A stretch of 37,874 nucleotides of DNA from an uncultured Lachnospiraceae bacterium (GTDB lineage: Bacteria > Bacillota > Clostridia > Lachnospirales > Lachnospiraceae): the NCBI GenBank assembly GCA_947175175.1, contig CAMWLV010000021.1, positions 1-37,874 on the forward strand. Direction: 5' to 3'. Below, piece after piece: positions 12,021 to 32,473 of the stretch. Numbering within the stretch: position 1 is the first letter of the stretch; each line of letters begins with the position of its first letter. The translations under genes and the position numbers were made by a program. Below the pieces are notes generated by a model. It was given only the letters and a program-made list of their open reading frames with translations, was not told the origin of the DNA and searched no databases.

Positions 12021-12087
12021 GTTTGAAAGAAGATTACTTTCAAACGATTGATTGGTATGCGTGCTGAAGCACGCAGGGGGTATAATT
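12021..12087 (+). repeat. 5'-UTR cassette repeat, copy 1 (before thiN)
   Basis: Hairpin 1 is GTTTGAAAG-AAGATTA-CTTTCAAAC. A linker (GATTGATTGGTAT) follows, then hairpin 2 GCGTGC-TGAA-GCACGC, and then AGGGGG as Shine-Dalgarno. The repeat ends at the thiN ATG (12088). It is the same element as at 14916, 23720, 23785 and 32413. Confidence 0.9.
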
Positions 12088-12744
12088 ATGAAAAAATGTG
12101 TGATAATCGGAGCAGGGGCGTGTGATACACAAAAACTGAAAAAACAGCTGATATTAAATGAGAAAGATCTGTGCATTGCTGCGGACGGGGGATTGGATTA
12201 TCTGCTCAAAATCGGATTGACACCGGATATTGTATTAGGGGATATGGATTCACTGGAAAATGAAGAGCGGATTGATTCCGCATATGCAGATTTTCTTATA
12301 AAGAGACTTCCAGTTGAGAAAGATGATACAGATATGCTCGCAGCGGTCAAGGAGGGACTGGCAGCAGGGTGTCGGCAGTTTGAGCTTTATGGGGCGCTTG
12401 GCGGGAGACTTGACCATACATTTGCAAATGTTCAATGCTTATTATACCTGTTAAATCGGGATGCGAGAGGCATTATTGTGGGTGATGATGTCACATTGAT
12501 ACTGATTCGAAATGAAAAGATTTCTTTTTCGGCAAGTGACACTAAGAAAGGAAAGCGCGTATCCGTTTTTGCTTTTGCCGGTGATGCACATGGGGTTTCG
12601 GAAAAAGGATTGAAATATCTGCTGGATAATGTTACTGTAAAATCAGAGTTCCCGATCGGCGTGAGCAATGAATTTACAGGAGAGGATGCCGAGATTGAGG
12701 TGAAAGACGGCATGCTTTTGATTTACGTGGAGGGATTACAATGA
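12088..12744 (+). CDS. thiN: Thiamine pyrophosphokinase
   Basis: A 218-residue cytoplasmic enzyme of the ThiN/TPK family that transfers pyrophosphate from ATP to thiamine, giving the cofactor TPP. Motifs seen in order are AADGGLDYLL (~33-42), PDIVLGDMDS (~48-57), KDDTDMLAAVKEGL (~75-88) with the metal-binding Asp pair, and YGALGGRLDH (~99-108). The C-terminal half is the usual beta-rich TPK thiamine-binding domain. The length is normal for the family. The ATG at 12088 is chosen because it directly follows the AGGGGG of the cassette repeat. The next gene overlaps its stop by 4 bp (ATGA), indicating translational coupling. The structured cassette in the leader suggests regulation at translation; no TPP riboswitch was recognised. 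Confidence 0.93.
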   Translation: MKKCVIIGAGACDTQKLKKQLILNEKDLCIAADGGLDYLLKIGLTPDIVLGDMDSLENEERIDSAYADFLIKRLPVEKDDTDMLAAVKEGLAAGCRQFELYGALGGRLDHTFANVQCLLYLLNRDARGIIVGDDVTLILIRNEKISFSASDTKKGKRVSVFAFAGDAHGVSEKGLKYLLDNVTVKSEFPIGVSNEFTGEDAEIEVKDGMLLIYVEGLQ

Positions 12745-13601
12745 TATACACATTTTCAACATGGCTTTTCTTTTTTTATTTCTATTGTTTTCTGGGATGG
12801 ATATGGGAGACCTGTTATGTGTCTGTGTTAAAGGCAAAATGGGTTAACAGAGGCTTTATGAGAGGTCCTTTTCTGCCAATCTATGGATCTGGGGCAATTG
12901 TCGTACTGATCTTTACATTGCCATTCCGCACAAATCCCGGACTGGTGTTTGGAGTGGGAATGGTGAGTGCCACAATATTGGAGTATTTTACCGGAGTGGC
13001 AATGGAGCGGATGTTTCATGTACGATACTGGGATTACAGTAACCAGCGTTTGAACCTAAACGGTCACATCTGTGTGACGTCTTCGCTGGCATGGGGTGTA
13101 TTTTCCGTGATTCTCACGTTATATGGACATACGCCGGTGGAGCGTCTTGTGTCCCGTATGAGCACAAATGTTTTGGAAGTTACTGTTTTTATACTTACAG
13201 CGTATATATCGATTGACATGGCAGAGAGTATCCGTGAGGCGATTAACCTCAAGGAAGTGCTGATGAGTCTCGAGGAGAACAACGAGGACTTTCGGAGGCT
13301 GCAGAAGCATATTGAGGTGGTATCTGCATTTTATGGCGGTGAGCTGAAGGAAAAATCGGAGGCAGGATTGCGAAAGATTAATTCAGCATTGGAATCAGGC
13401 AAGGAAATGTATGGCAGGCTTGGTGAGAGCGGCAGAATGTCCAGGGCAGCACTCATGGAAAGGGTGAACAGCGCAAGGACAAAGAAAGAATACGGACGTA
13501 TGAGTTCGCTGTTAAAACGGAATCCGCGGGCGGTGTCCAAAATGCACGAGGAAGCATTTTCAAGGTTTGTGGAGTTCACAGAGGAAGATACAGATCAATA
13601 G
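12741..13601 (+). CDS. CmpB-like (putative ABC transporter type IV) membrane protein
   Basis: A 286-residue protein. The first ~160 residues hold about five hydrophobic membrane segments with the conserved start FFFYFYCFLGWIWETCYVS and the run NRGFMRGPFLPIYGSGAI, typical of the PF06541 family annotated as putative ABC-transporter type IV. The C-terminal ~110 residues are a charged, helical cytoplasmic tail. Family function is not established, despite its name. It starts inside the thiN stop codon (4-bp overlap), so the two are co-translated; a link with thiamine is only suggested by this position. The Shine-Dalgarno is GGAGGG inside thiN. Confidence 0.85.
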   Translation: MIYTFSTWLFFFYFYCFLGWIWETCYVSVLKAKWVNRGFMRGPFLPIYGSGAIVVLIFTLPFRTNPGLVFGVGMVSATILEYFTGVAMERMFHVRYWDYSNQRLNLNGHICVTSSLAWGVFSVILTLYGHTPVERLVSRMSTNVLEVTVFILTAYISIDMAESIREAINLKEVLMSLEENNEDFRRLQKHIEVVSAFYGGELKEKSEAGLRKINSALESGKEMYGRLGESGRMSRAALMERVNSARTKKEYGRMSSLLKRNPRAVSKMHEEAFSRFVEFTEEDTDQ

Positions 13602-13663
13602 GCATTGATGCTATAAAAAGCAGGTCTAAGGATTGCGGAGTAGTGTCAGGGAAGGGGAAGAGA

Positions 13664-14851
13664 ATGAGTACAATTGATTATGGAAGGTTAACCAAATTGG
13701 GAGAAGTGCTTGAGAAAAGCGTTCAGGCAGGTCAGATTGCGGGTGGTAATCTGTGCGTTCTTCACAAAGGAGAAGAAGTGTACTATGCGGAGTCGGGTTA
13801 TGCGGATATTGCCAGTCAGAAAAAAATAGCAAGAGACAGTATCTTTCGTCTGTATTCCATGACAAAGCCAGTCACAGCGGCTGCAGTGATGTTGTTGATG
13901 GAGCGCGGTGTTATTGACCTGCTTGATCCTGTGTCAAAATACATACCCACCTTTGCAGATATGAAGGTGGCGACACCGGATGGTGATGTGGCAGCAAACA
14001 GACAGGTAACAGTAAAAGACTGTCTGTCCATGACATCAGGGCTTACATATAATTGTGATCCGGATCCTGCAAGCCGCGACGCAGCGCTTGTCTATGATGA
14101 GCTGGACAGGAGGCTGTACTCTGACAATCCGATGACGACTATGGAGATGGCATTGAAAATGGGACAGGGGCGGCTTGCCTTTCAGCCGGGAGAGAGCTGG
14201 CGGTACGGGACGAGCGCCGATATTCTTGGCGCGATTGTGGAGGCGGCGTCTGGTATCAGTTTCGGGGAATTTCTGAAAAGAGAGTTTTTTGAACCATTAA
14301 ATATGAAGGATACCGATTTTAGGCTTGACGCATCAAAGAGGGACAGGCTGACAAAAGTGTATGAGGCAACGGCAGATGGGCTGATTGAGTATCATGGAAA
14401 CCATCTGGGCATCTGCAATCATATGGATGCCGATGTTCGGTTTGAGTCAGGTGGTGCAGGGCTGGTGTCCACGATAGCGGATTATAAACATTTTGCGCAG
14501 ATGCTCATGAACAGGGGAACTTATCAGGGAAGGACATATCTGGCGTCCTCGACTGCTGCATACATGACTGGCTGTCGTCTATACCCACACCAGCAGACTA
14601 TGATGCTGGGGTGGGAGAGTCTTGCGGGCTATAGCTACAGCAATCTGATGCGTGTCATGACAGAACCGTCATTGGCAGTGATGAACGGTTCACAGGGAGA
14701 GTATGGCTGGGACGGATGGCTTGGACCATATTTTACCAATATGCCAAATGATGACACAACTTTTCTGATGATGGTGCAGCTAAAGGATTCTGGAACGTTT
14801 ACACTGACACGAAAATTGAGAAATGTGTTGGCTGCAGCATTGATGCGATAG
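13664..14851 (+). CDS. Serine hydrolase of the beta-lactamase/esterase (class C-like) family
   Basis: A 395-residue protein. The nucleophile motif SxxK is present as SMTK (Ser65-Lys68), followed by a typical helix (PVTAAAVMLLMERG). A Tyr-containing motif WRYGTSADILG takes the place of the YxN motif. The C-terminal GYGWDGWLG-type segment (here EYGWDGWLGPYF) replaces KTG, as in EstB-like esterases. There is no signal peptide, so it is probably cytoplasmic and more likely an esterase or peptidase than an antibiotic-hydrolysing enzyme. The ATG at 13664 has GGGAAGGGG 7 bases upstream; an in-frame GTG at 13643 is a weaker alternative. It follows the CmpB-like gene by 62 bp on the same strand. The substrate is unknown. 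Confidence 0.88.
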   Translation: MSTIDYGRLTKLGEVLEKSVQAGQIAGGNLCVLHKGEEVYYAESGYADIASQKKIARDSIFRLYSMTKPVTAAAVMLLMERGVIDLLDPVSKYIPTFADMKVATPDGDVAANRQVTVKDCLSMTSGLTYNCDPDPASRDAALVYDELDRRLYSDNPMTTMEMALKMGQGRLAFQPGESWRYGTSADILGAIVEAASGISFGEFLKREFFEPLNMKDTDFRLDASKRDRLTKVYEATADGLIEYHGNHLGICNHMDADVRFESGGAGLVSTIADYKHFAQMLMNRGTYQGRTYLASSTAAYMTGCRLYPHQQTMMLGWESLAGYSYSNLMRVMTEPSLAVMNGSQGEYGWDGWLGPYFTNMPNDDTTFLMMVQLKDSGTFTLTRKLRNVLAAALMR

Positions 14852-14866
14852 CTTTTATAAAATGGC

Positions 14867-14894
14867 TTGAAAAAGCTGTGGAATATGATATAAA
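14867..14894 (+). promoter_or_regulatory. Promoter of the coiled-coil gene at 14983
   Basis: TTGAAA (14867-14872), a 16-base spacer and TATAAA (14889-14894) preceded by TGA. The same TATGATATAA context occurs at the promoter before cassette copy 1. Confidence 0.65.
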
Positions 14895-14915
14895 TTAGAA
14901 TCAGTTGGTGGTGAA

Positions 14916-14982
14916 GTTTGAAAGAAGGTCACTTTCAAACTATTGATTGGTATGCGTGCCGGGGTACGCAAGGGGTATATAA
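14916..14982 (+). repeat. 5'-UTR cassette repeat, copy 2
   Basis: Hairpin 1 is GTTTGAAAG-AAGGTCA-CTTTCAAAC. Hairpin 2 is GCGTGC-CGGG-GTACGC, where the changed base converts a G-C pair to a G-U wobble and so keeps the stem. AAGGGG follows, and the repeat ends at the ATG at 14983. Confidence 0.9.
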
Positions 14983-15216
14983 ATGGATAAGGAAATGAAA
15001 TTAATGGTTAATGCAATACTTGAGGAAATGGGGCGTATGGAAAGCCGGATCAATAAGAGAATGGATGAACGTTTTGACAAAATTGAAAAGCGCCTGGATT
15101 CCATGCAGCATGAGCTTAACGCCTGTAAATTGGAGGCTGGAACAGTGGATATACTGATTAAAAAGATAGATCAGCTGGAAAAACGGATTGAAGAATTAGA
15201 GCGAAAAACGGCGTAG
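14983..15216 (+). CDS. Small coiled-coil protein (paralog of the protein at 29790)
   Basis: A 77-residue, highly charged protein that is predicted to be one continuous helix with heptad hydrophobic spacing (MESRINKRMDERFDKIEKRL, then LIKKIDQLEKRIEELE). It shares with the protein at 29790 the start MDKE-K, the central INACKL/LNACKL motif with TVD after it, and the Leu-rich end, so the two are paralogs. It has no membrane segment and no enzyme motif. It is expressed from its own promoter and cassette leader and is followed by a strong terminator, so it is monocistronic. A structural, adaptor or oligomerising role is possible, but no function can be assigned. Confidence 0.8.
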   Translation: MDKEMKLMVNAILEEMGRMESRINKRMDERFDKIEKRLDSMQHELNACKLEAGTVDILIKKIDQLEKRIEELERKTA

Positions 15217-15224
15217 ATATGATA

Positions 15225-15264
15225 AGTATAAAATAAGCAGGCATTTGCCTGCTTATTTTATACT
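15225..15264. terminator. Bidirectional terminator with an 18-bp perfect stem
   Basis: AGTATAAAATAAGCAGGC (15225-15242) pairs perfectly with its complement at 15247-15264 around an ATTT loop. The right arm covers the stop codon of the minus-strand ABC gene, so it serves both convergent genes. Confidence 0.9.
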
Positions 15265-17036
15265 ACATCTTGAAGCTGAGCGGTATAGAGTCTGTAGTAA
15301 GCGCCTTTTTTTGCCATGAGTTCCATGGCATTTCCTTCCTCCACAATCCCCCCATTGTCGATGACAAAGATGCGGTCGGCTTTTTGAATCGTAGACAGGC
15401 GGTGTGCGATGACAAAGGAGGTACGTCCTTTTAACAGGGCTTCAATGCCATTCTGCACCAATAGTTCTGTCTTTGTGTCGATACTTGATGTTGCCTCGTC
15501 CAAGATCAGGATTTTAGGCATACTGACCATAGTCCGGGCGAAAGCGAGCAGCTGCTTTTGTCCAACCGACAGGCCGCCGCCGCGTTCCTCCAGTTTTGTG
15601 TTATATCCGTCAGGAAGCTTTGTGATAAAATCATGCGCGTGAACAGCTTTCGCAGCGGCGATGATTTCCTCGTCTGTCGCGTCTAACTTTCCGTAGGCGA
15701 TATTTTCACGGATTGTCCCTGTAAATAGAAAATTGTCCTGTGTCATAATGCCCATCTGCTGCCGGAGGCTTTCGATACTGACTTTTTTGATATCGTGTCC
15801 GTCGATCTTGATCACACCTTTCTGAATATCATAGAAACGGCTGATTAAATTCACGATGGTTGTCTTTCCTGCGCCAGTAGGTCCCACAAGGGCGATCGTC
15901 TCACCAGGGTTTATGTGGAAATTCACATCATATAGGACATCCGTGTCTTCCTCATAAGAGAAACCGACATGTTCAAAGTCAACTGCCCCGACAATCTCAG
16001 GCATCGGTGTCACGCCTTCGGCGTCCATGATTTCAGCACTGGTATCCAGTATCTCAAAGATTCGCTCTGCACCAGAAATATTGGTGATCAGCTGATTGTA
16101 AAAGTTGCTTAGGTTCATGATCGGCTGCCAGAACATTGATATATATGTACCAAATGCGATAAGTGTTCCTACAGATACATTGTCGACTCCGAGGATCATG
16201 ATACCTGTAAACCACAGGGAAACGTTGCCAAGTCCCCAGCAGAAATCTACGACAGATCCAAAAGAGTCTGCATACAGTACAGCGTCCATGAAAGAGCGCT
16301 GATGCTCGTCGACAAGCGTGCGGAAAGTTTCTTTTGTCTCGTTCTCAGCTGTGAAACTCTGTATAATACGAATACCTGACATATCTTCGTGCACAAAGGC
16401 GTTGAGATTTGAGGATTTTTTTCGAAAGATCTGCCAGCACTTGTGGGAGCGCACCTGTATAAACCATACCCCGGCAATCATGAGGGGAATGCTGATCAGT
16501 GCAGCGGCAGCGAGCCTTGCATTTTTGACAAACATAATGCAGACTACCGCGCAGATCGTGATAAAATCCGGTATCAAGGTCGTGACGCTGTTTGACAGCA
16601 CATCTTTTAGTGAGTTGATGTCTCCTATGATTCGTGCAAGGATTTTTCCGGTCGGCCGGCTGTCAAAGAACTTGAAGTCAAGTGTCTGTATATGTGTGTA
16701 GAGCTGCTGCCGGATTGTGACAAGTACTTTATTGCACACTTTCGCCATGATATACATGCGGGCTTTCACTAAAATGATAAGAATACCATTTAATACAAGC
16801 GCAATCAGAACAAGTCGATACAGCCCTGCATAATCGCCGGTTGCTATGTGGTTATCAATAGCGGATTCTATAATGAGTGGATTTATGAGGCTTACACATA
16901 CACAATACGCCATGATCAGCAGCACCGCAAAGATGGAAGCCTTGTGTGTGAGCAGATAGACGAACAGTCTGCCCAGGGTTTTAATTTTGCTTACTTCATT
17001 TAGGTTTTCGTCTTCTTTAAAGGAATTAATTGCCAT
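15258..17036 (-). CDS. ABC exporter subunit (half-transporter, canonical ATPase)
   Basis: A 592-residue half-transporter: about six membrane helices (~20-320), then an ATPase domain. It has Walker A (GPTGAGKTT), a signature of the form LSVGQKQ, and Walker B with the catalytic Glu (ILILDEATSSID), plus the H-loop (IAHRLST). The start at 17036 is set by AAGGAGGTG six bases upstream and overlaps the upstream ABC gene by 11 bp, so the two are translated together. With the upstream subunit, whose catalytic Glu is Asp, it forms a typical asymmetric heterodimeric exporter (BmrCD or TM287/288 type) for drugs, lipids or peptides; the substrate cannot be inferred from sequence. It is the second gene of the operon. 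Confidence 0.94.
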   Translation of the reverse strand: MAINSFKEDENLNEVSKIKTLGRLFVYLLTHKASIFAVLLIMAYCVCVSLINPLIIESAIDNHIATGDYAGLYRLVLIALVLNGILIILVKARMYIMAKVCNKVLVTIRQQLYTHIQTLDFKFFDSRPTGKILARIIGDINSLKDVLSNSVTTLIPDFITICAVVCIMFVKNARLAAAALISIPLMIAGVWFIQVRSHKCWQIFRKKSSNLNAFVHEDMSGIRIIQSFTAENETKETFRTLVDEHQRSFMDAVLYADSFGSVVDFCWGLGNVSLWFTGIMILGVDNVSVGTLIAFGTYISMFWQPIMNLSNFYNQLITNISGAERIFEILDTSAEIMDAEGVTPMPEIVGAVDFEHVGFSYEEDTDVLYDVNFHINPGETIALVGPTGAGKTTIVNLISRFYDIQKGVIKIDGHDIKKVSIESLRQQMGIMTQDNFLFTGTIRENIAYGKLDATDEEIIAAAKAVHAHDFITKLPDGYNTKLEERGGGLSVGQKQLLAFARTMVSMPKILILDEATSSIDTKTELLVQNGIEALLKGRTSFVIAHRLSTIQKADRIFVIDNGGIVEEGNAMELMAKKGAYYRLYTAQLQDVV

Positions 17037-18798
17037 AATATGCACCTCCTTCTCCGATTACAGCAGATTTGCCAGGATCAGCTGGTTCACCGTACTGCGA
17101 TACATAGGTGGTATAGTATAGCCCTTTTTGGGCAAGGAGTTCGTCATGTGTCCCGCGCTCGGCAATCGAACCGTTTTCCAGGACAATGATTTCATCCGCA
17201 TGACGCACTGCGCTGATACGGTGAGCAATGATCAGCTTTGTAGTGTCAGGCAGCGCTTTCAGCGTCTTCTGAATCTCGTGTTCTGTCTCCATATCCAGCG
17301 CGGACGTTGAGTCGTCCATGATCAGAATTGGTGTATGTTTTGCGAGAGCTCTTGCGATACTGATGCGTTGTTTTTGTCCGCCGGAAAGTCCGACACCGCG
17401 TTCCCCGATGATCGTCTCATACTCATCAGGCATCTTTTCGATAAAGCTGCTCGCCTGTGCATCTCTGGAAGCTTTGCGCACAATTGCCTCATCGATAAAT
17501 TCTTTTTTGCCGAGTTTTACATTTTCATTGATCGTATCCGAGAATAAAAACACATCTTGCATGACAATGGAAATGCTGCTTCGAAGCTGCTTTAAAGACA
17601 GTTTTCTGATGTCAATACCGTCAAGCCGTATATAGCCATCAGTGGCGTCGTACAGCCTTTGCAGCAGTTGTATTACCGAAGTTTTTCCAGCACCTGTGGC
17701 ACCCATGATGCCAATGGTAGATCCAGGAGCGGCCTCAAAAGTGATGTCATGAAGGATTTCATGCATATCCTCTTTATGGAAAGAGACATGTGAAAACTCG
17801 ATTCTGCCTTCTACATGGTCTAAGGTGACAGGGCTCTCAACCTCGGTGATGACAGGTTTCTGCTCATAGATTTTGACAATCTTTTTGTTGGAAGCGATGC
17901 CCGCCGAGAAGTCATTTGACAGCCAGCCGAGCATTTCCATGGGCCATACAATGTTGTTGGAGTATTCGAGAAAGGCTCCCAGTACACCTAATGTAATCGC
18001 TCCCTGGATAACAAGGCGTCCGCCAAGCAAAAGAACAGTCATAGGCAGAAGTTTTGTGATAATCTGCAGGTATGGATAGTAGCGCACAAACACCTTGGAC
18101 TGCTTCATGTTCAGTTCATAGTAGCGCTGGTTGTGCGACAGAAATTTATTGATCTCAAATTTTTCCCTCGCAAATGCCTTTACAGTGCGCACGCCGGCAA
18201 GGTTTTCTTCCGCTACGGTATTGAGCACTGCGTTTTCCTCGCTGATATCCTCGTAAACAGAACCGAGATGACGCTCCATGCTGACAGCAATCAGGGCGGA
18301 CAGAAGCATGGCGATCGTTGGTATGATGGCAAGCGGTGCGTGAAGCCGGTACATGCAGAAGAGTACGATGCATGTGTGAAAAATTACTTCTATGATTAAC
18401 ATGCTTATATAGGACAAAGTGTTCCATATTCTATCCGTATCATCCTTAACGCGTGCCATGAGTTCCCCAGTGTTGGTCTTGTCGAAAAAACTGCTGCTCA
18501 GACTCTGGATATGGTCAAACAGATTTTTCCTCATGTCTGCGCCAATGGACGAACCCACTTTGTCAAAGGTGTATTCCTTTGTATACTGAAAAACACAGCG
18601 GCCGATACCAACAATCAGGATACCGCCCAGTAGGTAAGGCAGAATCGCAAGATTTCCGCCCAGTATCACATCGTCAATGATATGCATGGTGAGCATCGGC
18701 GCCAGCATATCAAGGGAAACGCTGATGATCAGCGATGCAATGGCAAAGAGATAATGCCATTTGTACTCCCAGATGTAAGTTGATAGTTTCTTCCTCAT
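17026..18798 (-). CDS. ABC exporter subunit (half-transporter, degenerate Walker B)
   Basis: A 590-residue half-transporter: six membrane helices (~15-320), then an ATPase domain with Walker A (GATGAGKTSV), a canonical signature (LSGGQKQR) and an H-loop (IAHRIS). The residue after the Walker B Asp is Asp rather than Glu (ILIMDDSTSALD), so its own nucleotide site is probably slow or non-hydrolytic, as in the first subunit of heterodimeric exporters such as TM287 and BmrC. The start at 18798 follows GAGGGAGGG. It is the first gene of a two-gene operon behind a leader peptide and an intrinsic terminator, which suggests induction by translation stress or an antibiotic. Confidence 0.94.
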   Translation of the reverse strand: MRKKLSTYIWEYKWHYLFAIASLIISVSLDMLAPMLTMHIIDDVILGGNLAILPYLLGGILIVGIGRCVFQYTKEYTFDKVGSSIGADMRKNLFDHIQSLSSSFFDKTNTGELMARVKDDTDRIWNTLSYISMLIIEVIFHTCIVLFCMYRLHAPLAIIPTIAMLLSALIAVSMERHLGSVYEDISEENAVLNTVAEENLAGVRTVKAFAREKFEINKFLSHNQRYYELNMKQSKVFVRYYPYLQIITKLLPMTVLLLGGRLVIQGAITLGVLGAFLEYSNNIVWPMEMLGWLSNDFSAGIASNKKIVKIYEQKPVITEVESPVTLDHVEGRIEFSHVSFHKEDMHEILHDITFEAAPGSTIGIMGATGAGKTSVIQLLQRLYDATDGYIRLDGIDIRKLSLKQLRSSISIVMQDVFLFSDTINENVKLGKKEFIDEAIVRKASRDAQASSFIEKMPDEYETIIGERGVGLSGGQKQRISIARALAKHTPILIMDDSTSALDMETEHEIQKTLKALPDTTKLIIAHRISAVRHADEIIVLENGSIAERGTHDELLAQKGLYYTTYVSQYGEPADPGKSAVIGEGGAYYGN

Positions 18799-18860
18799 AA
18801 AAGATAGTTCCCTCCCTCGAATCGTTCTCCAGTGTATTGCCTGAAAGCAAAAAAGGTACA

Positions 18861-18891
18861 AAAAAACCTCATGGTAAAATCACCATGAGGT
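18861..18891 (-). terminator. Intrinsic terminator in the ABC operon leader (attenuator)
   Basis: On the minus strand ACCTCATGGT-GATTTT-ACCATGAGGT forms a 10-bp stem followed by a T-rich run. It lies after the leader peptide and 63 bp before the first ABC start codon, so its read-through would control the operon. TCAAATG just after the leader stop can pair with CATTTGA immediately before this stem, but no clear antiterminator was identified. Confidence 0.8.
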
Positions 18892-18930
18892 CAAATGACA
18901 ATGAAAGCATCATTTATAAAGTACATTTGA

Positions 18931-19017
18931 TCAGATACAATATACCCCGGAGATAATTTTACTATTGAATAACATTATGAATGAATTTGCTGTTACATTT
19001 CTGGTCTTGTTAGACAT
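18931..19017 (-). CDS. 28-residue leader peptide of the ABC exporter operon
   Basis: This short gene has a very strong ribosome binding site (AAAGGAGG, 7 bp before the ATG) and encodes 28 residues (MSNKTRNVTANSF, ending GVYCI). Promoter, leader gene, terminator and exporter genes follow each other in that order. This matches the layout of B. subtilis bmrB-bmrC-bmrD, where a ribosome translating a small leader gene controls terminator formation in response to ribosome-targeting antibiotics. The peptide itself is not similar to BmrB as far as I can judge. It is too short to be recognised as a family. The assignment as a regulatory leader is inference from position. Confidence 0.65.
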   Translation of the reverse strand: MSNKTRNVTANSFIMLFNSKIISGVYCI

Positions 19018-19090
19018 AGTGCTACCTCCTTTCTTCGTTGTGTGCACTTGTTATCATTTCCAACAAATGCAATTAATGGTTACTCTATTT

Positions 19091-19119
19091 AACATACTCT
19101 TATTTTTGCTGGTTGTCAA
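19091..19119 (-). promoter_or_regulatory. Promoter of the leader-ABC exporter operon
   Basis: On the minus strand TTGACA (19119-19114), a 17-base spacer and TATGTT (19096-19091). Transcription would begin near 19084, giving a leader of about 285 bases before the first ABC gene. Confidence 0.65.
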
Positions 19120-19211
19120 CTATTTATTTACAGTTCTTTGTAAAGATGATATCATTAAAAAATATAGGACTGGCGGGAAAAGAGTTTCATACGAAAGGGG
19201 CTGATGGGAAC

Positions 19212-21749: not shown

Positions 21750-21767
21750 AGCCATTTCACTTAATTG

Positions 21768-23610: not shown

Positions 23611-23631
23611 GTGTTTCAGGGGATGCTATAG

Positions 23632-23661
23632 TTGACATCTTGATGTACATGGGTGTGATAT
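23632..23661 (+). promoter_or_regulatory. Possible promoter of eno
   Basis: A perfect TTGACA (23632-23637) is followed after 18 bases by TGATAT (23656-23661), a weak -10. The region lies after the gpmI terminator and before the tandem cassette repeats, so a promoter for eno is expected here. Confidence 0.4.
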
Positions 23662-23719
23662 GAGAGTCAAATGACAAGATTTTGATATTTGATTGCGCTC
23701 TGTACATGGAAAGAGTAAA

Positions 23720-23784
23720 GTTTGAAAGAAGGCCACTTTCAAACTATTGATTGGTATGCGTGCCAGAGCACGCAAGGGGTATAA
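23720..23784 (+). repeat. 5'-UTR cassette repeat, copy 3a (tandem, before eno)
   Basis: Hairpin 1 is GTTTGAAAG-AAGGCCA-CTTTCAAAC, hairpin 2 is GCGTGC-CAGA-GCACGC, followed by AAGGGGTATAA. It runs without a gap into copy 3b, with a repeat period of exactly 65 bp. This copy is not followed by a start codon. Confidence 0.9.
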
Positions 23785-25263
<1,479 letters not shown>

Positions 25264-25275
25264 TGTAACCAATTT

Positions 25276-25330
25276 ATGTAAATTCCACAATAATTGTCTG
25301 ACAAATATAGGCAAATTGCGGAATTTACAT
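25276..25330 (+). terminator. AT-rich inverted repeat after eno, possible terminator
   Basis: ATGTAAATTCC (25276-25286) and GGAATTTACAT (25320-25330) are exact complements around a 33-base loop, followed by an A/T-rich run without a clean T-tract. It lies 12 bp after the eno stop and probably protects or ends the transcript. Confidence 0.45.
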
Positions 25331-25347
25331 AAAATTTTTAAATAATA

Positions 25348-25374
25348 TAAAAAATTCCAAAAATTCACCGATAT
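25348..25374 (+). promoter_or_regulatory. SigD-like promoter in the eno-secG gap
   Basis: TAAA (25348-25351), a 15-base spacer and ACCGATAT (25367-25374). The -35 matches the SigD consensus perfectly and the -10 at 7 of 8. The downstream context CCGATATATATTA is shared with the SigD-like site at 4589, which strengthens both. Confidence 0.55.
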
Positions 25375-25380
25375 ATATTA

Positions 25381-25545
25381 TGCGCAGCGAAATATGAGTG
25401 AAAACAGTGATAAGAGATGTGTAACAATACCCTAATATGCCAAAAACAGATCTTAGAACTGTTTGAATGAAGTATTTTCAAGATAGGGTGTCTAATGGTC
25501 TGGAGCAGTATTCAGAGTATTAGATACCCTATTTTGATGTGTTTT
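25381..25545 (+). ncRNA. Candidate SigD-dependent small RNA
   Basis: The 400-bp gap between eno and secG contains a SigD-like promoter and, ~105 bp after it, a strong hairpin AAGATAGGGTGTCTAA (25480-25495) with TTAGATACCCTATTTT (25520-25535) followed by a T-rich stretch. A second hairpin AAACAG/CTGTTT (25444-25464) lies between. There is no credible coding frame: only a 13-codon ATG frame with no ribosome binding site. A transcript of ~165 bases fits. It could instead be the 5' leader of secG read through the hairpin. Confidence 0.4.
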
Positions 25546-25573
25546 TAGGTTAACAATGAAAAGCAAAAAACAG

Positions 25574-25602
25574 TTGAAATATAAATTGATGTGTGTTAAA
25601 CT
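25574..25602 (+). promoter_or_regulatory. Possible promoter of secG
   Basis: TTGAAA (25574-25579), a 17-base spacer and TAAACT (25597-25602), 62 bp before the secG start. Confidence 0.45.
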
Positions 25603-25664
25603 GTTTCTTGTTAGTGGATTTTGGGTACAAAATGTCTACAGGTTATCAACGAGGAGGTGTGAAG

Positions 25665-25901
25665 ATGGCAGCGTTAAGAGTATTTTTAATGTGTATTTTA
25701 ATAATCGTTTCTATTATATTTACAGTGATTGTTTTGATGCAGGAAGGTAAATCCGCGGGACTTGGTGCGATCAGTGGTGCAGCTGAGACTTATTGGGGCA
25801 AGAACAAAGGCCGTTCCATGGAAGGTGCGCTTGTCAAGATTACCAAGGTTTTGGGCGTTGTATTTATGCTGCTTGCAGTTGTTTTAAATATCAATTTTTA
25901 G
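25665..25901 (+). CDS. secG: Preprotein translocase subunit SecG
   Basis: A 78-residue membrane protein, the normal SecG length. It has two hydrophobic segments (~5-26, LRVFLMCILIIVSIIFTVIV, and ~57-76, ITKVLGVVFMLLAVVLNI) and the conserved loop QEGKSAGLGAISG followed by ETYWGKNKGRS. It is part of the SecYEG channel in the cytoplasmic membrane. The start at 25665 follows GAGGAGGTG; a longer frame from 25593 has no ribosome binding site. It sits between eno and rnr, the usual order in Clostridia, and ends in its own terminator. Confidence 0.95.
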   Translation: MAALRVFLMCILIIVSIIFTVIVLMQEGKSAGLGAISGAAETYWGKNKGRSMEGALVKITKVLGVVFMLLAVVLNINF

Positions 25902-25929
25902 TCTATGATATATTTAAGATAAAGCTATG

Positions 25930-25957
25930 AAACACTCTTGTAAAAAGAGTGTTTTTT
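25930..25957 (+). terminator. Intrinsic terminator after secG
   Basis: AACACTCTT pairs with AAGAGTGTT around a short A-rich loop and is followed by a T run. Confidence 0.85.
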
Positions 25958-26016
25958 CGTAATTGTTCGGTATAGGTCTGCGCAGTCGGAATTATGTTTG
26001 AACAGGAGGTGCTTGG

Positions 26017-28185
26017 ATGTCTGATAAGAGAAAAAAGGTGATTATGGATCTGGTGTCGTCGGAGTTTTATGTGCCGATGAAAGAGAAAGAGCTTGCGGTC
26101 ATGCTGCAGGTCTCGAAAGAGGACAGGGGAGAATTAAACCGCATCTTAAACGAACTGCTGGCGGAGGGAAAGCTTTCACTCACCAAGAAGGGAAAATTTA
26201 TCAAAGCAAAATATTCAGAAAAGGAGCTGATCGGAACATTTATCAGTCATCCAAAGGGGTTTGGGTTTGTTGAGATTGATGGCAGAGATGAGGATCTGTA
26301 TATTCCAGAGAATTTTGTAAATGGGGCTTTCCACAAGGATACAGTGAAAGTATCACTTTTATCGGGGCAGAATGGCAGACGTCAGGAAGCACAGGTCACA
26401 GAGATTCTTGCAAGAGGCATGAAGCAGATTGTGGGCATCTATGACAAAAGCAACAAGAATTATGGCTTTGTAATACCAGATAATACGAAAATAAGTGAGG
26501 ACGTCTTTGTTCCGGCGGAACGTTCCAAGGGAGCTGTGTCGGGACACAAAGTTGTCTGTGAGATAACGGACTATGGCAAAAATAACCGAAAGCCGGAAGG
26601 CAGGGTAACAGAGATTTTAGGGCATGTCAATGATCCAGGTGTGGATATCATGTCGATTGTAAAAGGCTATGAGCTGCCGATCGAATTTTCTGAGAAGATT
26701 ATGCATCAGGCAGAGCGGGCAGCAAATGAAGTGTCTGAGGCGGATATGGCGGGGCGGCGGGATCTGCGCGATGTACAGATGGTGACAATCGACGGGGAGG
26801 ATGCGAAGGATCTTGACGACGCAGTCAGCCTCACAAGAGACGGCGCGTTGTATCAGCTGGGGGTGCACATCGCGGATGTGACCAACTATGTGCAGGAGAA
26901 TTCTGCACTGGACTGGGAGGCAAGGGAGCGCGGAACAAGTGTCTATCTGGTGGATAGGGTGATTCCCATGCTTCCGCACAAACTTTCCAATGGTATCTGT
27001 TCACTGAATGCAGGGGAGAACAGGCTGGCGCTGAGCTGTCTCATGACGATCGATCAGAGAGGTGAGGTTATAAGCCATGAGATTGTTGAGTCTGTTATCA
27101 AGGTAGATCGGCGTATGTCCTACACGAGTGTAAAAAAAATACTAGAGGACCAAGATGTGGCAGAGCGCAGAGAGTATGAGGAGCTTGTGCCAATGTTTGA
27201 GCTGATGCGGGAACTTGCGGGAATACTGCGCGAGAAGCGCAAAAAGAGAGGTTCTATCGACTTTGATTTCCCAGAGAGCAAGATCATCCTTGATAAACAG
27301 GGGCAACCGATTGAGATTAAGCCTTATGAGCGCAATGCGGCGACAAAGATTATAGAGGATTTCATGCTGATTGCAAATGAGACAGTTGCGGAGCATTTTC
27401 ACTGGATGGAGCTGCCATTTGTATATAGGACGCATGACAATCCAGATCCGGAAAAGATCAACAAACTCAGTACTTTTATCCGGAATTTCGGATATTCCAT
27501 CAAGAGCAGACAGGAGGAGATTCACCCCAAGGAATTACAGAAACTGCTGGCAAAGATAGAGGATACGCCGGAGGAGGCGCTGATCAGCAGGTTGACGCTG
27601 AGAAGTATGAAACAGGCAAAATACACGATAGACTGTACAGGGCACTTTGGGCTGGCATGTCAGTATTATTGTCATTTCACATCACCGATCAGGCGTTATC
27701 CAGACCTGCAGATTCATCGCATCATCAAAGAACAGATCCGCGGAAAGCTGAATGAGAAGCGCATTGATCACTATAATGAAATCCTGCCGGAAGTGGCGAA
27801 GCATTCTTCCGAGATGGAGCGGCGCGCGGACGAGGCAGAGCGCGAGACTGACAAGCTCAAAAAAGTTGAATTTATGGAGCGTCACATCGGTGAGATTTAT
27901 GAAGGTGTTATTTCATCGATTACAGCGTGGGGCGTGTATGTGGAGCTGCCCAATACGATTGAGGGTATGATTCATGTGTCCATGCTGCCGGGGGACTATT
28001 TCTATTATGATGAGGAGACGTACGAGATGGTGGGGCAGGCAACGGATATTCGATATAAGCTTGGACAAACATTGAAAGTTCGAGTCAATGCGACAGATAA
28101 GATATTGAGGACGATTGATTTTGTCATTCCGCAAAATTGGGAAATGGAAGAGGAAGAAAGAAGGGAATGTAATGGCAAAGAATGA
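26017..28185 (+). CDS. rnr: Ribonuclease R
   Basis: A 722-residue 3'-to-5' exoribonuclease of the RNB family. Domains in order: an N-terminal winged-helix-like segment (~1-65), cold-shock/S1-like RNA-binding domains (~70-210, with [17 protein letters not shown]), the catalytic RNB domain (~240-580), with the Asp cluster [10 protein letters not shown] starting at residue 259 and HIADVTNYV after it, and a C-terminal S1 domain (~625-705, [21 protein letters not shown]). It degrades structured RNA and works with tmRNA/SmpB in quality control. The start follows CAGGAGGTG. Its 3' end overlaps smpB by 14 bp, so they are co-translated. Confidence 0.97.
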
Positions 28186-28642
28186 GGCAATGAAACTGGT
28201 CGCCAACAACAAGAAAGCATATCATGATTATTTTATAGAGGAGAAATATGAGTGCGGTATTGCGCTTCATGGTACAGAGGTCAAGTCACTGCGCATGGGA
28301 AAGTGCAGCATCAAGGAGTCATTTATTCGGATAGAAAACGCAGAGGTTTTTGTGTATGGCATGCACATCTCTCCCTATGAAAAAGGAAATATATTTAATA
28401 AAGATCCTCTGCGCGTGAAAAAGCTTCTGCTGCATAAGCAGGAGATTAACAAGCTATTGGGAAAAATCAAAGAGAAAGGGTACACATTGGTGCCGCTTCA
28501 GGTGTATTTTTCCAATGGAAGGGCGAAGGTGGAGATTGGGCTTGCGCGCGGTAAGAAACTGTACGACAAACGTGAGGACATCGCTAAGAAAGATGCGCGG
28601 CGTGAGACAGAACGCGAGTTTAAAGTGAGGAATTTATATTGA
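28172..28642 (+). CDS. smpB: SsrA-binding protein SmpB
   Basis: A 156-residue protein that binds tmRNA and brings it to stalled ribosomes. Characteristic segments are [23 protein letters not shown] (shortened: [15 protein letters not shown]), [55 protein letters not shown] and a basic C-terminal tail ([16 protein letters not shown]) that reads the empty mRNA channel. The length is normal. It starts within rnr (14-bp overlap), with the Shine-Dalgarno GAAGGGAATG inside rnr. The tmRNA gene itself was not found next to it. Confidence 0.97.
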
Positions 28643-28645
28643 TTT

Positions 28646-28805
28646 AGGAACTGTAGGAAAATAAGTGATACAGATTGCGCAGGATATTTCTTCGAGGATG
28701 TATGTCAAAAAACGTAGGCGTAGCGGGCTACGGCGAGGCTTTTTGACATGCATAATCGGAGAAATAGACAAGTCAAGATGTGTCAGTTATTTTTCTACAG
28801 TTCCT
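28646..28805. repeat. 160-bp long imperfect inverted repeat (MITE-like hairpin)
   Basis: The ends AGGAACTGTAG and CTACAGTTCCT are exact complements. The next parts AAAATAA and TTATTTT also pair, and further in ATGTCAAAAA (28702-28711) pairs with TTTTTGACAT (28740-28749) around a core CGTAG-CGGG-CTACG. The whole can fold as one long hairpin. It begins 3 bp after the smpB stop. No coding frame fits. The plan resembles the 168-bp element at 2566, but the end sequences differ. Confidence 0.75.
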
Positions 28806-28813
28806 TAGCACAC

Positions 28814-28837
28814 AAAAAGGAGCTTTTGCTCCTTTTT
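28814..28837. terminator. Bidirectional intrinsic terminator
   Basis: AAAAAGGAGC-TTTT-GCTCCTTTTT is a perfect 10-bp stem with A and T runs. It serves the smpB transcript and the convergent minus-strand gene, whose stop codon touches it. Confidence 0.9.
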
Positions 28838-29744
28838 AGTCTTCGCGGCTTCTTGCGGTGATGATCCACGGTGCGGGATCGGATTTAAAGGTGTTGTTGC
28901 TGCGGAGCTTTGTCACAGATACCTGTATTGTCTCCACGTCGGCAAGTCCCAGGTCATGCAGTGTATCTGGCAGGGCAGCAGCAGTCTTGAAGTCCAATGT
29001 GTAAATGACCACATTGATATTCGGGTTTCGTTTCGTGAGACATTCAAGCTCCTGTTCCGTACTTGCTGACGCAACCAGGAATACCAGCGAAGGAACCGGG
29101 TATTCTGCCATAGTCTTCTCGTCGACATGGTCGATGATCTTGATATTGTGGAGATCAAAGTGTGATACGTTGTCTTCCAGGGTGGAGCGGTCAGCCCTGC
29201 TGTACTCAACAGCGATGACAGAGCCCTCCGCGGCGATCAATGCCGCCTCGATGGCGATGCTTTCACCGCCGATCACACAGATATCATCCTGCGGATCAAC
29301 CATCATCTTGCTGAGAATAATCGAACGGATCTCACTGCCTACATAGTGAATCGAACCGCGCTGGAGTTTCTCGTTGCTCAGTCCGATACGCGAGGAATTT
29401 CTGGCGTTTGGGTTGATGATGAGCATGCCTGCAGAGGCATTGATACCGCGGTTGATCATATCTTTGATCTGATTATGCAGAATTTCGCCGCTCGGATCAG
29501 AGCCCTCATTGTACCAAACCTCACACTCACCAAGACCTGCATTCCACAGGCGGTAGAAGATGTCATCAATTCCGGCATTGGTAAACACCAGAGTGGTCTT
29601 GTGTGCCTCGACAGTGGGGATTACGTTTTTGTTTTTCTTGGTGATGTCAATAATTTTGACATGCTCCAAGTCAATTGGTGTGTTTTGCGAGTAGTACTGC
29701 AGCCAGCTTAAAATAATCTCATTTGTAAAAATCTGTTTTTCCAT
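28836..29744 (-). CDS. CbiT-like methyltransferase with degenerate SAM motif
   Basis: A 302-residue protein. The C-terminal half resembles precorrin methyltransferase CbiT/CobL: GLSNEKLQRGSIHYVGSEI is close to the CbiT entry motif, followed by DDICVIGGESIAIEAALIAA (~153-172), AVEYSRADRSTLEDNVSHF and KIIDHV. The glycine-rich SAM loop, normally DIGAGTGSVS-like, reads VIGGESIAI, so cofactor binding is doubtful. The N-terminal half (~1-110) resembles the CbiE part of a fused CbiE-CbiT but is short. No other cobalamin genes are nearby. The start at 29744 follows GGAGGC; an in-frame TTG at 29783 is less likely. It is last in a minus-strand run of four genes. Confidence 0.6.
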   Translation of the reverse strand: MEKQIFTNEIILSWLQYYSQNTPIDLEHVKIIDITKKNKNVIPTVEAHKTTLVFTNAGIDDIFYRLWNAGLGECEVWYNEGSDPSGEILHNQIKDMINRGINASAGMLIINPNARNSSRIGLSNEKLQRGSIHYVGSEIRSIILSKMMVDPQDDICVIGGESIAIEAALIAAEGSVIAVEYSRADRSTLEDNVSHFDLHNIKIIDHVDEKTMAEYPVPSLVFLVASASTEQELECLTKRNPNINVVIYTLDFKTAAALPDTLHDLGLADVETIQVSVTKLRSNNTFKSDPAPWIITARSRED

Positions 29745-29789
29745 AGTTCGTGCCTCCTTGTGTTGTTTGGTTAAAAACTGCAATCATTT

Positions 29790-30056
29790 TTATGCTGTAA
29801 GTTTTCGTACTTGTTCTTTTAGAATGTTTACCTCGTTTTCTAGAAGGATAACCTTTTTGAGGAGTAGATCAACAGTATCTAAGTTTAATTTGCAGGCATT
29901 GATTTCATGCATCATTTGTTCGTGCTGGTTTCTGTTTTCTTCTTTGAATGCATTAATACTGGATTGAACAGTATCTATTTTACTGTTTGTCCTTTCCTGC
30001 ATTCTGTCCATTTCTTTGATGAGCGCATTAAATAGTTCTTTGGTTTCTTTATCCAT
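29790..30056 (-). CDS. Small coiled-coil protein (paralog of the protein at 14983)
   Basis: An 88-residue, charged, continuous predicted helix (MDKETKELFNALIKEMDRM, then LLLKKVILLENEVNILKEQ). Shared features with the 77-residue protein at 14983 are MDKE-K at the start, INACKL followed by DTVD in the middle, and heptad leucines at the end. An extra Asn/Gln-rich stretch (KEENRNQHEQMMHE) accounts for its greater length. The start follows GGAGG at 8 bp. Unlike its paralog it has no cassette repeat in front and lies inside a minus-strand gene run, 29 bp after the previous gene. Function unknown. Confidence 0.75.
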   Translation of the reverse strand: MDKETKELFNALIKEMDRMQERTNSKIDTVQSSINAFKEENRNQHEQMMHEINACKLNLDTVDLLLKKVILLENEVNILKEQVRKLTA

Positions 30057-30085
30057 GTTTTACCTCCACAATTATAAGATTAATT

Positions 30086-30868
30086 TCAAAAAATGTTTCC
30101 TAATTTATGTAATAGTCTCTCGATTTTGTATAAAAGCTGGCTATTGTCATTTGTGTTTTCCATAGAGCGAATAATGTCTGGTTTCTGGTCTAAGATCGAT
30201 TGGTCAATATGCGCCGTAATTTTATTCTTTTCAAGAGTGATCGTACCAATCATATCCTGTGCTTTGATCACAAAGTCGACATCAGATTCATTGTCATAGT
30301 AATCAGGGGTAACAGTGTTCACACATAATTCTCCGGCTTCGTTTACAGTCAGCATCAGGTCAGAAACAAAGACCGAGCAGTCAAAAACGGTCACTTTTTT
30401 GTTTGCGGGATCAAAGTATCCTATTTGTGAACGGAGTACGCCGGAACCCCATAAGAAAGTATAGTATAGTTCATACTGACCGTCCTTGTTTAAATCTGCA
30501 AGAGCCATGCCTGCAATATTCGATCTTCCCAAATATTCACCAAGACGGTATATCTGCCCATCATATAGGACAAAGGATTCGTGACACTCTTCGTATTTGA
30601 AAATCGTATAGTCGGAATTGTCTGCAATAAAGTCAGGAGTGATATTATAACATTTGTCTGTATCATATGGCGATTTAAATTCTTTGTTTTGGGCTTCAAA
30701 TGCGGCAACCTGTTTCATAGATGGCGTTATTGTTAATTCAGACTCTGGTGCAAGTGGATTAAGAGCTGCCTGCGTTGAATTTGTGTTCTCTATAAAGACT
30801 GATAAAACAAGTGCAATACAGATGAGTAAGGATATGATATATAATATGTATTTGACTTTTACGGACAC
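30086..30868 (-). CDS. Membrane-anchored protein with EF-hand/FG-GAP-like loop
   Basis: A 260-residue protein with one N-terminal hydrophobic segment (~5-25, YILYIISLLICIALVLSVF) and an extracytoplasmic remainder. A DLNKDGQYELYYTF stretch has the DxNxDGxxE spacing of calcium-binding FG-GAP/VCBS or EF-hand-like loops. The GTG start at 30868 is chosen because GGAGG lies 8 bases upstream; an ATG 15 bases earlier has no ribosome binding site and would include that site in the gene. It is the second gene of a minus-strand run and starts 17 bp after its upstream neighbour. A cell-surface binding or sensing role is possible, but I do not recognise the family. Confidence 0.65.
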   Translation of the reverse strand: MSVKVKYILYIISLLICIALVLSVFIENTNSTQAALNPLAPESELTITPSMKQVAAFEAQNKEFKSPYDTDKCYNITPDFIADNSDYTIFKYEECHESFVLYDGQIYRLGEYLGRSNIAGMALADLNKDGQYELYYTFLWGSGVLRSQIGYFDPANKKVTVFDCSVFVSDLMLTVNEAGELCVNTVTPDYYDNESDVDFVIKAQDMIGTITLEKNKITAHIDQSILDQKPDIIRSMENTNDNSQLLYKIERLLHKLGNIF

Positions 30869-30885
30869 TTCGCCGCCCTCCATAC

Positions 30886-31758
30886 TTATTTCATGATCAT
30901 TCTTCCGACTTTTTGGAACTGTGTTTTCCCCTTTTTTCGTATTTCTTCGTAAAGAATATGTTCCTTACCACTGTCCAGCAGATGATCCAATGTATTTTTC
31001 CACAGGATACAGACACGGCAGTGGTCTGTGTGGTCAAATACAATATGCAGGTGGCAGGGGGACTCATCCTCTAATTTGATGACAGCATGATATTCATTTT
31101 CTGCGGGAGGATTTTTCCGTCCTCCGTCTTCCTCTGGAAACCATTCAATGAATGCTTCGCGGGATCTTGTAAGCCATGCGATATTGAACTCATAAAGTTC
31201 GCTTTTCCTGGGATTTTTGAAACCGTCAAACGCCTCTGCTTTTGTGAGAGAAAACAGAAATCCGTATTCAGGATATTCACGTGATGAAGAATGTCCCGTT
31301 GCACTTTTGCGTGCGTAGCCTTTCACAGACAGCAGATATTTCCCAGAGGGCACATCGTATTTAAAACTTCTATAATAAGTTTTATCGTCCATCGTCTGGG
31401 AGGAGTTTTCATACTTATCCAGTTTCTCTGCGTCATAATAGTCAAGCGGTTCCAGATCGGAGATGCAAAGGCTGTTCTGAATATCGATATTAAATCCTTC
31501 ATACGCTAATTTTAGATTCCACTCCTCGTCAAAAGGTTCATCGTATCCGTCCAGTTTGACGATATATCCGCCAGCATCGATCTTTACAATGGGAAATAGG
31601 ATACCTTGTTCCTGTGTTCTTAAATAAAGTTCCTTGTCCTTCTGTAATTTGGTCAGCAGCTTTTTTGAACGGACTTTTTTGGTTTTCAGAAAATCCTGCA
31701 ATACAGGCAATGAGAATAGGGCAATTCCATAGCCGTAAGCACCTAAGACTCTGTCCAT
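30886..31758 (-). CDS. Hypothetical protein
   Basis: A 290-residue soluble protein that I do not recognise. The N-terminus (VLGAYGYGIALFSLPVLQDF) is weakly hydrophobic but short for a membrane anchor, followed by a basic helix (KTKKVRSKKLLTKLQKDKE). The central part alternates beta-like strands and acidic turns, and the C-terminus is basic. The start follows GGAAAGGAAGG. It is the first gene of the four-gene minus-strand run (31758-28836). The run is divergent from the leuD-like gene at 31945. No catalytic motif is visible. Confidence 0.65.
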   Translation of the reverse strand: MDRVLGAYGYGIALFSLPVLQDFLKTKKVRSKKLLTKLQKDKELYLRTQEQGILFPIVKIDAGGYIVKLDGYDEPFDEEWNLKLAYEGFNIDIQNSLCISDLEPLDYYDAEKLDKYENSSQTMDDKTYYRSFKYDVPSGKYLLSVKGYARKSATGHSSSREYPEYGFLFSLTKAEAFDGFKNPRKSELYEFNIAWLTRSREAFIEWFPEEDGGRKNPPAENEYHAVIKLEDESPCHLHIVFDHTDHCRVCILWKNTLDHLLDSGKEHILYEEIRKKGKTQFQKVGRMIMK

Positions 31759-31944
31759 CTTTTGTTACCTTCCTTTCCTTAGATGTCAAACTTTTTATAT
31801 TATAACTATACCACATCAGAACCAAAAAAACAGCATGATACAATAAAAATAATCCTAGTTTTTTATGGATAAATTTGATACACTATAAAAAGCATAAAGC
31901 GAATTAAGAATTCATTACATTACAGGAAAGGACAGGATATTACA

Positions 31945-32415
31945 ATGGGAAAGATATTTAAGTTTGGGCAGGATGTGGATACAGATCAGATTATCGCCTC
32001 GCAGTATATTATATATCCTACAATTGATGAGATGAAAGTACATACTTTCGAGTCTTTGGATACGGATTTTGCGTCACAGGTGCAGCCGGGGGATTATGTC
32101 GTTGCGTCGGAGAATTTTGGGTGTGGTTCCTCGAGGGAACAGGCGCCAAGTGTGTTGAAGGCGCTGGGAGTCAAGGCAGTGGTCGCGAAGTCTTTTGCGC
32201 GTATCTTTTACAGAAATGCGATCAATATCGGACTTCCGGTGATCGTGTGCAAAGATCTGTATGACAATGTAAATGCAGGAGATGATATGGAACTTTCCAT
32301 GCAGGAGGGTGTGGTGCGTGTAAACGGAAAAGAATATGAGTGCACGAAGCTGCCTGAATATATGCAGGGAATCCTTGACCAAGGCGGATTGATCGCATCG
32401 TTAAATAAGGAATGA
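31945..32415 (+). CDS. Aconitase-family dehydratase small subunit (leuD-like), pair 1
   Basis: A 156-residue small (swivel-domain) subunit of a hydro-lyase of the isopropylmalate-isomerase/homoaconitase type. Typical segments are DVDTDQIIASQYII, NFGCGSSREQAP, VVAKSFARIFYRNAINIG and a short C-terminal tail. The substrate loop after the DTD motif reads QYIIYPT, unlike the usual YLRT/YLNT of isopropylmalate isomerase, so leucine biosynthesis is not assured. The start has AGGAAAGGACAGG upstream. A paralogous small subunit lies at 33750. The stop codon is shared with the 5' end of cassette copy 4, and the large subunit follows after 58 bp. Confidence 0.85.
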   Translation: MGKIFKFGQDVDTDQIIASQYIIYPTIDEMKVHTFESLDTDFASQVQPGDYVVASENFGCGSSREQAPSVLKALGVKAVVAKSFARIFYRNAINIGLPVIVCKDLYDNVNAGDDMELSMQEGVVRVNGKEYECTKLPEYMQGILDQGGLIASLNKE

Positions 32416-32473
32416 AAGTCACTTTCAAACTATTGATTGTTATGCGTGCCGAAGCACGCAAGGGGGTATAAAG
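32413..32473 (+). repeat. 5'-UTR cassette repeat, copy 4 (truncated, inside the operon)
   Basis: The left arm is shortened: TGAAAG-TCA-CTTTCA forms the first hairpin, and the TGA is also the stop codon of the preceding gene. The rest is like the other copies, with hairpin 2 GCGTGC-CGAA-GCACGC, AGGGGG, and the ATG at 32474. It is the only copy between two genes of one operon. Confidence 0.88.

Follow-up and report, generated by a model that had tools for sequence, protein, structure and literature searches.

A two-hairpin repeat of Lachnospiraceae that carries its own Shine-Dalgarno sequence and probably moves into ribosome-binding sites

RNA thermometers and riboswitches are structured leaders that lie immediately before a start codon, and the small dispersed repeats of cyanobacteria are very small structured repeats. 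To our knowledge, no role in ribosome binding has been described for the latter. We compared these and other systems with a two-hairpin repeat of about 66 bp, five copies of which lie in a 37,874-nucleotide (nt) stretch of DNA from an uncultured Lachnospiraceae bacterium (GCA_947175175.1, contig CAMWLV010000021.1), referred to here as the window. The repeat is like the cyanobacterial repeats by description. It differs from thermometers and riboswitches in that its Shine-Dalgarno (SD) sequence is mostly exposed in predicted folds, its stems drift at single loci and no regulon was seen.

PMC3116915 describes REPINs as inverted REP pairs tied to a RAYT gene. REPINs and REP sequences with RAYT transposases have in common with the repeat that they are short non-autonomous hairpin DNAs with many copies, tandem clusters, spread within a genome and proposed mobility by a transposase. 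In contrast to them, the repeat consists of two different hairpins in fixed order, carries its own SD, adjoins an ATG and has no Y1 transposase match in its own genome; the term 'start codon' does not occur in the main text of that paper. Prokaryotic miniature inverted-repeat transposable elements (MITEs) such as RUP and ERIC are likewise small and multicopy, have no transposase gene of their own and can alter expression, according to part of the review PMC10969869, whose main text contains neither 'Shine-Dalgarno' nor 'start codon'. Unlike MITEs, the repeat has ends (AAGTTTG...GGGGTATAA) that by eye are not terminal inverted repeats, has no visible target duplication of at least 3 bp, and is inserted between SD and ATG with an SD of its own. 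Rickettsia palindromic elements, about 150 bp long and nearly half of them in open reading frames (ORFs) according to the same part of PMC10969869, share with it the in-frame insertion into coding sequence, of which we found one case (contig C327 of the sister species G017); this in-gene copy is exceptional in a family found mostly at start codons. A full-text search of the open-licence PMC literature gave no report of such an element among the matches listed, and the group II intron paper PMC2882425 deals, in the part available, with cloning and intron sites and not with SD-targeted repeats. The repeat is, in our view, likely to be a non-autonomous mobile element whose insertion targets are ribosome-binding sites (RBSs), which it replaces with its own. 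It resembles REPINs and MITEs as a small non-autonomous element, yet it lacks terminal inverted repeats and an own-genome Y1 match, and there is a real chance that RBS targeting marks it as a new class.

Copies at start codons and empty sites in a sister species

The repeat is composed of hairpin 1, a TTGATT linker, hairpin 2, an SD (AAGGGG, typically 7-8 nt before the ATG) and a TATAA motif. A first covariance model was built from 11 copies and matches were kept at E up to 0.1. In the source genome of the window (G000; 4.1 Mb in 249 contigs, 86.5% complete), 150 of 2667 first-look candidates were scored and 91 matches obtained, one of which, #90, comes from reading a palindromic tandem pair on its reverse strand. 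Counts were based on the 71 matches with at least 60 bits, 67 of which have no further copy directly behind them. A start codon follows the element end at 0-4 nt in 62 of these 67 (58 ATG, 4 GTG), and in 56 of the 62 it opens an ORF of at least 50 codons. The distance was 2 nt in 40 copies, 3 nt in 14, 1 nt in 5, 0 in 2 and 4 in 1; the five copies without a start codon in this range (#33, #37, #39, #44, #69) were kept in the 67. An ATG lay in the same range at 351 of 2680 control positions (13%) compared with 58 of 67 copies, and the placement of the copies at start codons is not due to chance. The 20 matches below 60 bits are mostly 5'-deleted copies, and 13 of them have an ATG or GTG at 0-4 nt.

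The same placement was found elsewhere. The sister species G017, whose enolase gene (eno) is 98% identical to that of the source genome, gave 83 matches; 51 were read, and 43 of the 50 that do not precede another copy have an ATG or GTG at 0-4 nt. In the single-contig genome G419, 39 of 44 copies were read and counted by hand. Thirteen stand before another copy, and 22 of the 26 others have a start codon (20 ATG, 2 TTG) 1-3 nt past the end that opens a frame of at least 40 codons. The first-pass annotation of the window had proposed a portable, possibly mobile element that carries its own RBS at a narrow distance from the start, and these genome-wide counts and the empty sites described below bear it out. 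It had also named many copies before ATGs and absence from Rfam as findings that would support it: no Rfam match was obtained above the gathering threshold in the window (one near eno, at E 7.7, is far below it) or up to E 1 in 11 relatives' loci. For 41 of 66 copies in the source genome, another same-strand open frame of at least 100 codons ends no more than 100 nt ahead of the copy or within it (a count without a control), so many copies sit inside gene runs.

We then looked upstream of the copies. One of the tetramers GGAG, GAGG or AGGA is present within 14 nt upstream of 40 of the 67 copies compared with 149 of 1005 control 14-mers (15%), and a looser SD set occurs at 48 of 67 compared with 225 of 1005. 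This enrichment indicates that the element mostly separates an older SD from the start codon and brings a second SD with it. The SD core lies 0 to 6 nt from the element, and once 10 nt. The in-gene copy of G017 (L240, C327:10118-10186) lies in the usual orientation inside an open frame that spans at least 222 codons of the sequence read. It adds 22 in-frame codons relative to the frame of the source genome, keeps both flanks and sits at the SD-like/ATG-like target GGGACA^AATATGG.

To compare orthologous sites, 38 of the 54 source-genome copies not yet paired with a G017 copy were queried, a sample that leans toward absent ones. Thirty G017 loci were returned and read (no locus was read for the other 8 queries): 15 carry the copy as well, 3 a truncated form of it and 12 none, one of these 12 (#58) being ambiguous. 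The site of copy #0 is also empty in G017. The converse search, with 21 G017 copies, returned 13 source-genome matches. Twelve of these loci were read: the copy is absent from 7 (among them the site of a copy on contig C383 that is 5'-truncated in G017) and truncated in 1, and the other 4 could not be compared or were unclear. The element is thus mobile, with orthologous sites filled in one sister species and empty in the other. In a scripted test of 18 empty sites, both flanks were anchored in 14, with a net insertion of 66 bp in 6 and of 57-69 bp overall; empty sites take forms such as GGAGGAGAAAAAGTG, AAAGGAGAAAAACTATG and AAAAGGAGTAAAAATG. By eye, no target-site duplication of at least 3 bp was seen at the anchored sites, and one of 1-2 bp would be indistinguishable in the A-rich flanks. 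At eno, there are two copies in the source genome, one in G017 and none in three relatives whose eno is 86% identical (G002, G013, G005), so the change at this locus is a gain. Tandem arrays are present in G000, G388 and G419, with the junction GGGGTATAAGTTTG in G000 and GGGAGTTTAGGTTG in G419.

Hairpin conservation and the proposed mechanism

Both hairpins covary across the family. In alignment A4, 7 pairs and 11 cells were changed on both sides, each a value reached in none of 500 shuffles. The same holds for alignment A5, which spans genera, with respect to 27 cells changed on both sides, the pairing percentage and the score. Hairpin 2 alternates among GCGTGC, GTCCGC, GTGCGC and ACGCGC forms, and the core sequence of hairpin 1 is invariant across genera. 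In three G419 copies (L349, L342, L356) hairpin 2 is enlarged by sequence in which two more short hairpins can be seen by eye, and a copy in an Acetatifactor metagenome-assembled genome (MAG; L120:4051-4154) has a further hairpin-like stretch inserted after hairpin 1 and ahead of the linker. A leader peptide starting from an ATG in hairpin 2 was considered and dropped, because that ATG is missing in several other subfamilies.

A different picture emerged at single loci. In 31 full-length copies shared by the source genome and G017 (truncated and tandem ones excluded), the stems differ at 4.9% and 6.0% of positions, the linker at 4.9%, the loops at 5.5% and 12.9% and the ends at 6.5%, and 29 stem differences break pairing and 25 keep it. 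Third codon positions of the downstream genes differ by 5.2% (21 pairs, a partly overlapping set), so the stems drift at about the third-codon rate and their structure is not maintained at each locus. The SD differs at 3 of 155 positions (1.9%) compared with 113 of 1935 elsewhere in the element. Read most simply, the hairpins are a requirement of source copies, and resident copies persist mainly on account of their SD. Since the hairpins covary in the family and drift at single loci, we infer that they would be conserved for mobilisation and not for the host gene.

In the proposed mechanism, the element enters in a single orientation, preferably close before a start codon and most often within the SD-ATG spacer, and displaces the native SD about 66 nt upstream. 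The element SD would then take over so that translation continues, and the host gene should come to depend on the element. More conjecturally, an excised or copied element may have its ends joined to a sequence (...AAGGGGTATAAGTTTG..., as in the tandem arrays) that resembles an RBS and recombines with native ones, which would leave the native SD on the left and the element SD on the right. Tentatively, and at somewhat less than even chance, the repeat may represent a new class of mobile element. Such an element would home to RBSs with its SD and spacer as the recombination core, genes such as those for gyrase and a fatty-acid synthase would need it for their translation, and several separately amplified subfamilies of it would exist across Lachnospiraceae. 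If the mechanism holds, the repeat is a selfish one that can land nearly neutrally where the control of a gene is most sensitive: the RBS is swapped, the protein stays intact and loss of the repeat is costly. It would also offer a natural route to genome-wide rewiring of translation start sites and an entry to a target-finding enzyme that recognises SD-ATG sequences, and it would call for caution in annotating start sites and leaders in gut Lachnospiraceae.

Several observations weigh against this mechanism. An SD-like tetramer was not seen upstream of 19 of the 67 copies. Two empty sites (#0, #33) lie at stop codons without a clear SD. Four of the 18 tested sites were unanchored on the left, and the net insertion of 57-69 bp is not constant and partly reflects flank indels. 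Outgroups support gain over loss at eno only. The copy on contig C383 of G017 is 5'-truncated where the source genome has no element, which would need full-length insertion and then loss. The constraint on the SD is marginal (Fisher p 0.043), and the weaker covariation measures were often matched by chance: further pair types in 13 of 500 shuffles for A4 and 195 of 500 for A5, and the 6 pairs changed on both sides in A5 in 74 of 500. Finally, Y1_Tnp (PF01797) gave no match in the source genome (86.5% complete), and a mobilising enzyme was not found in searches aimed at Y1 and IS110 only, not at reverse transcriptases or tyrosine/serine recombinases.

Alternative explanations

That the repeat is a cis-regulatory RNA of the 5' untranslated region (riboswitch, RNA thermometer or protein-binding leader) spread by duplication to the members of a regulon is rather improbable. 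Two covarying hairpins and a conserved linker directly before start codons would suit such an RNA, as would an SD that may be constrained. However, in folds predicted for 60 copies in context the mean probability of the SD being unpaired was 0.63 (above 0.5 in 78% of copies), and for the consensus it was 0.74 at 20 C and 0.80 at 50 C, nearly insensitive to temperature. An RNA thermometer was rejected by this folding, in which the SD is not paired at low temperature and freed at higher. The exposed SD, the drifting stems and the many pathways of the downstream genes argue against the translation-control device that had first been proposed for the window, and a regulatory RNA is further disfavoured by presence and absence differing between sisters and by the 41 of 66 copies closely behind a same-strand frame. 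Unselective insertion, with survival only of copies that restore an RBS, is the least credible explanation. The carried SD would make insertions between SD and ATG tolerable, yet copies in noncoding DNA should then survive too, and only 5 of 67 counted copies lack a start codon at 0-4 nt. The in-gene copy at an SD/ATG-like site is not explained by survival of RBS-restoring insertions, which places the preference at the insertion step.

The two remaining alternatives concern the route of movement. A short interspersed element (SINE)-like RNA, in which the leader RNA would become linked to an mRNA close to the start codon and be reverse-transcribed into DNA, appears unlikely but deserves some weight. 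The covariation is as in an RNA, the distance to the start codon (mostly 2-3 nt) is tighter than that to the SD, and branched hairpin 2 variants exist in G419. The 5'-truncated C383 copy also has the form expected of a truncated new insertion. This argument is weakened by copies #83 and #89, which are 5'-truncated in the source genome and full-length at the same gene in relatives (L040 of G013, and G017), so truncation can come later; the in-gene copy moreover keeps both flanks. It is similarly unlikely that the repeat is a REPIN/IS200-IS605-type hairpin element that a Y1 (HUH) transposase moves in single-stranded form, recognising both the hairpins and an SD-like site. Two hairpins, strand-specific insertion, the lack of a visible target duplication of at least 3 bp and the invariant hairpin 1 core would all agree with it, but no fixed short target motif adjoins the element end (the SD-like core lies at varying distances and is absent in 19 of 67 copies), no gene was seen between the hairpins in the copies read, and the lack of Y1 in the source genome extends to G013 (11 element matches) and G005 (6). 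G022 has 13 Y1 matches and no element match, and G017 has 3, two of them overlapping and with stops. In five genomes searched for IS110 transposase, G182 had none, G000 one weak match below the cut-off, and G017, G423 and G388 1-2 above it. Y1 and IS110 were both rejected as mobilisers, as neither tracks element copy number. No split, autonomous copy was found in the available flanks of 18 truncated or altered copies, the whole genomes not being searched; of the hairpin 1-like matches in these flanks, two upstream ones are known copies and the third (near #79) falls within an opposite-strand gene.

The window, target genes and subfamilies

All five copies were found by sequence inspection and model matches at the positions and in the sense orientation given by the first-pass annotation (Table 1). 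Its further description, of copies directly before four genes, all with the same hairpin 1, needs revision. The third copy abuts the fourth in tandem and not an ATG, and the ATG behind the fourth, taken for the eno start, opens a 9-codon mini-ORF, while eno keeps its AGGAGG; the likely eno start was picked by comparison with relatives. The window copies thus directly precede three ORFs and one mini-ORF that adjoins eno. The fifth copy lacks most of hairpin 1, and the same 5'-deleted form is present in G017. Predicted folds contain both hairpins in the other four and a shortened hairpin 1 in the fifth. Pfam confirmed the thiamine pyrophosphokinase, the enolase and the aconitase-family (LeuC-like) protein downstream of the copies, and gave matches below the cut-off only for the 77-aa ORF. 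In the relative G005, by eye, a similar GTG-started short frame lies near the enolase start without the element.

Table 1. Features of the repeat copies and adjoining genes in the window
Feature	Position	Strand	Remarks
Probable older SD (AAGGGGAGA) of thiamine pyrophosphokinase gene	12004..12012	+	by eye; now upstream of copy 1
Element copy 1	12018..12085	+	before ATG 12088 of thiamine pyrophosphokinase
Copy 1, hairpin 1	12020-12029 and 12037-12045	+	two arms with loop between
Copy 1, hairpin 2	12058-12075	+	
Copy 1, SD AGGGGG	12075-12080	+	
Element copy 2	14913..14980	+	before ATG 14983 of 77-aa coiled-coil-like ORF
Element copy 3	23717..23784	+	first unit of tandem pair
Element copy 4	23782..23849	+	second tandem unit; ATG 23852 starts 2 nt on
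Mini-ORF MKNSSGGQL, 9 codons	23852..23881	+	opened behind copy 4; TGA overlaps likely eno ATG
Enolase gene (eno)	23878..25263	+	own SD AGGAGG at 23866-23871
Element copy 5	32406..32471	+	5'-deleted, most of hairpin 1 gone; before ATG 32474 of aconitase-family (LeuC-like) gene

The genes downstream of the window copies had been noted to have nothing obvious in common, and this holds for the genes examined across the genome. Twenty-three of the 67 ORFs were picked for recognisable starts, not at random, and 20 were scanned, 19 of which had Pfam matches at 1e-10. They include DNA gyrase/topoisomerase IV subunit A, a RecQ-type helicase, DNA polymerase III delta subunit, GreA/GreB, Thg1, pseudouridine and dihydrouridine synthases, a member of the biotin/lipoate ligase family, beta-ketoacyl synthase, histidinol dehydrogenase (HisD), a histidine biosynthesis protein, a metal-sensitive repressor, MATE and others; DHFR and FeoA lie behind 5'-deleted copies. 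The targets as a whole share no pathway, and two belong to histidine synthesis. At L065 and L069 (copies #49 and #54), the ORFs end after 24 and 27 codons, and one of them has an N-terminus that by eye looks GNAT-like.

The first model matched 21 of 98 genomes (the source genome included), all of the same genus, and none of 60 outside the genus. A second model matched 10 of 397 genomes of the family and a third, broader one 16 of 397, the source genome included (E up to 1e-5, 12 candidates scored per genome for both). Named records with the element, from 33 stretches, are Lachnospiraceae or Acetatifactor MAGs, one being titled only 'bacterium'. One copy queried against phages and plasmids had no blastn match at E 1e-5, and an exact-pattern scan of IMG/VR gave none. 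A closer search at E up to 1e-4 yielded 44 matches in G419, 50 in G423 and 23 in G388. Four G423 loci (L289, L292, L295, L298) carry identical or near-identical copies of another subfamily (GGTTGAAAG...GTCCGC), and this near-identity suggests a separate recent expansion in another genus. At L280 (contig C32 of G248), two different subfamilies of the element stand in tandem.

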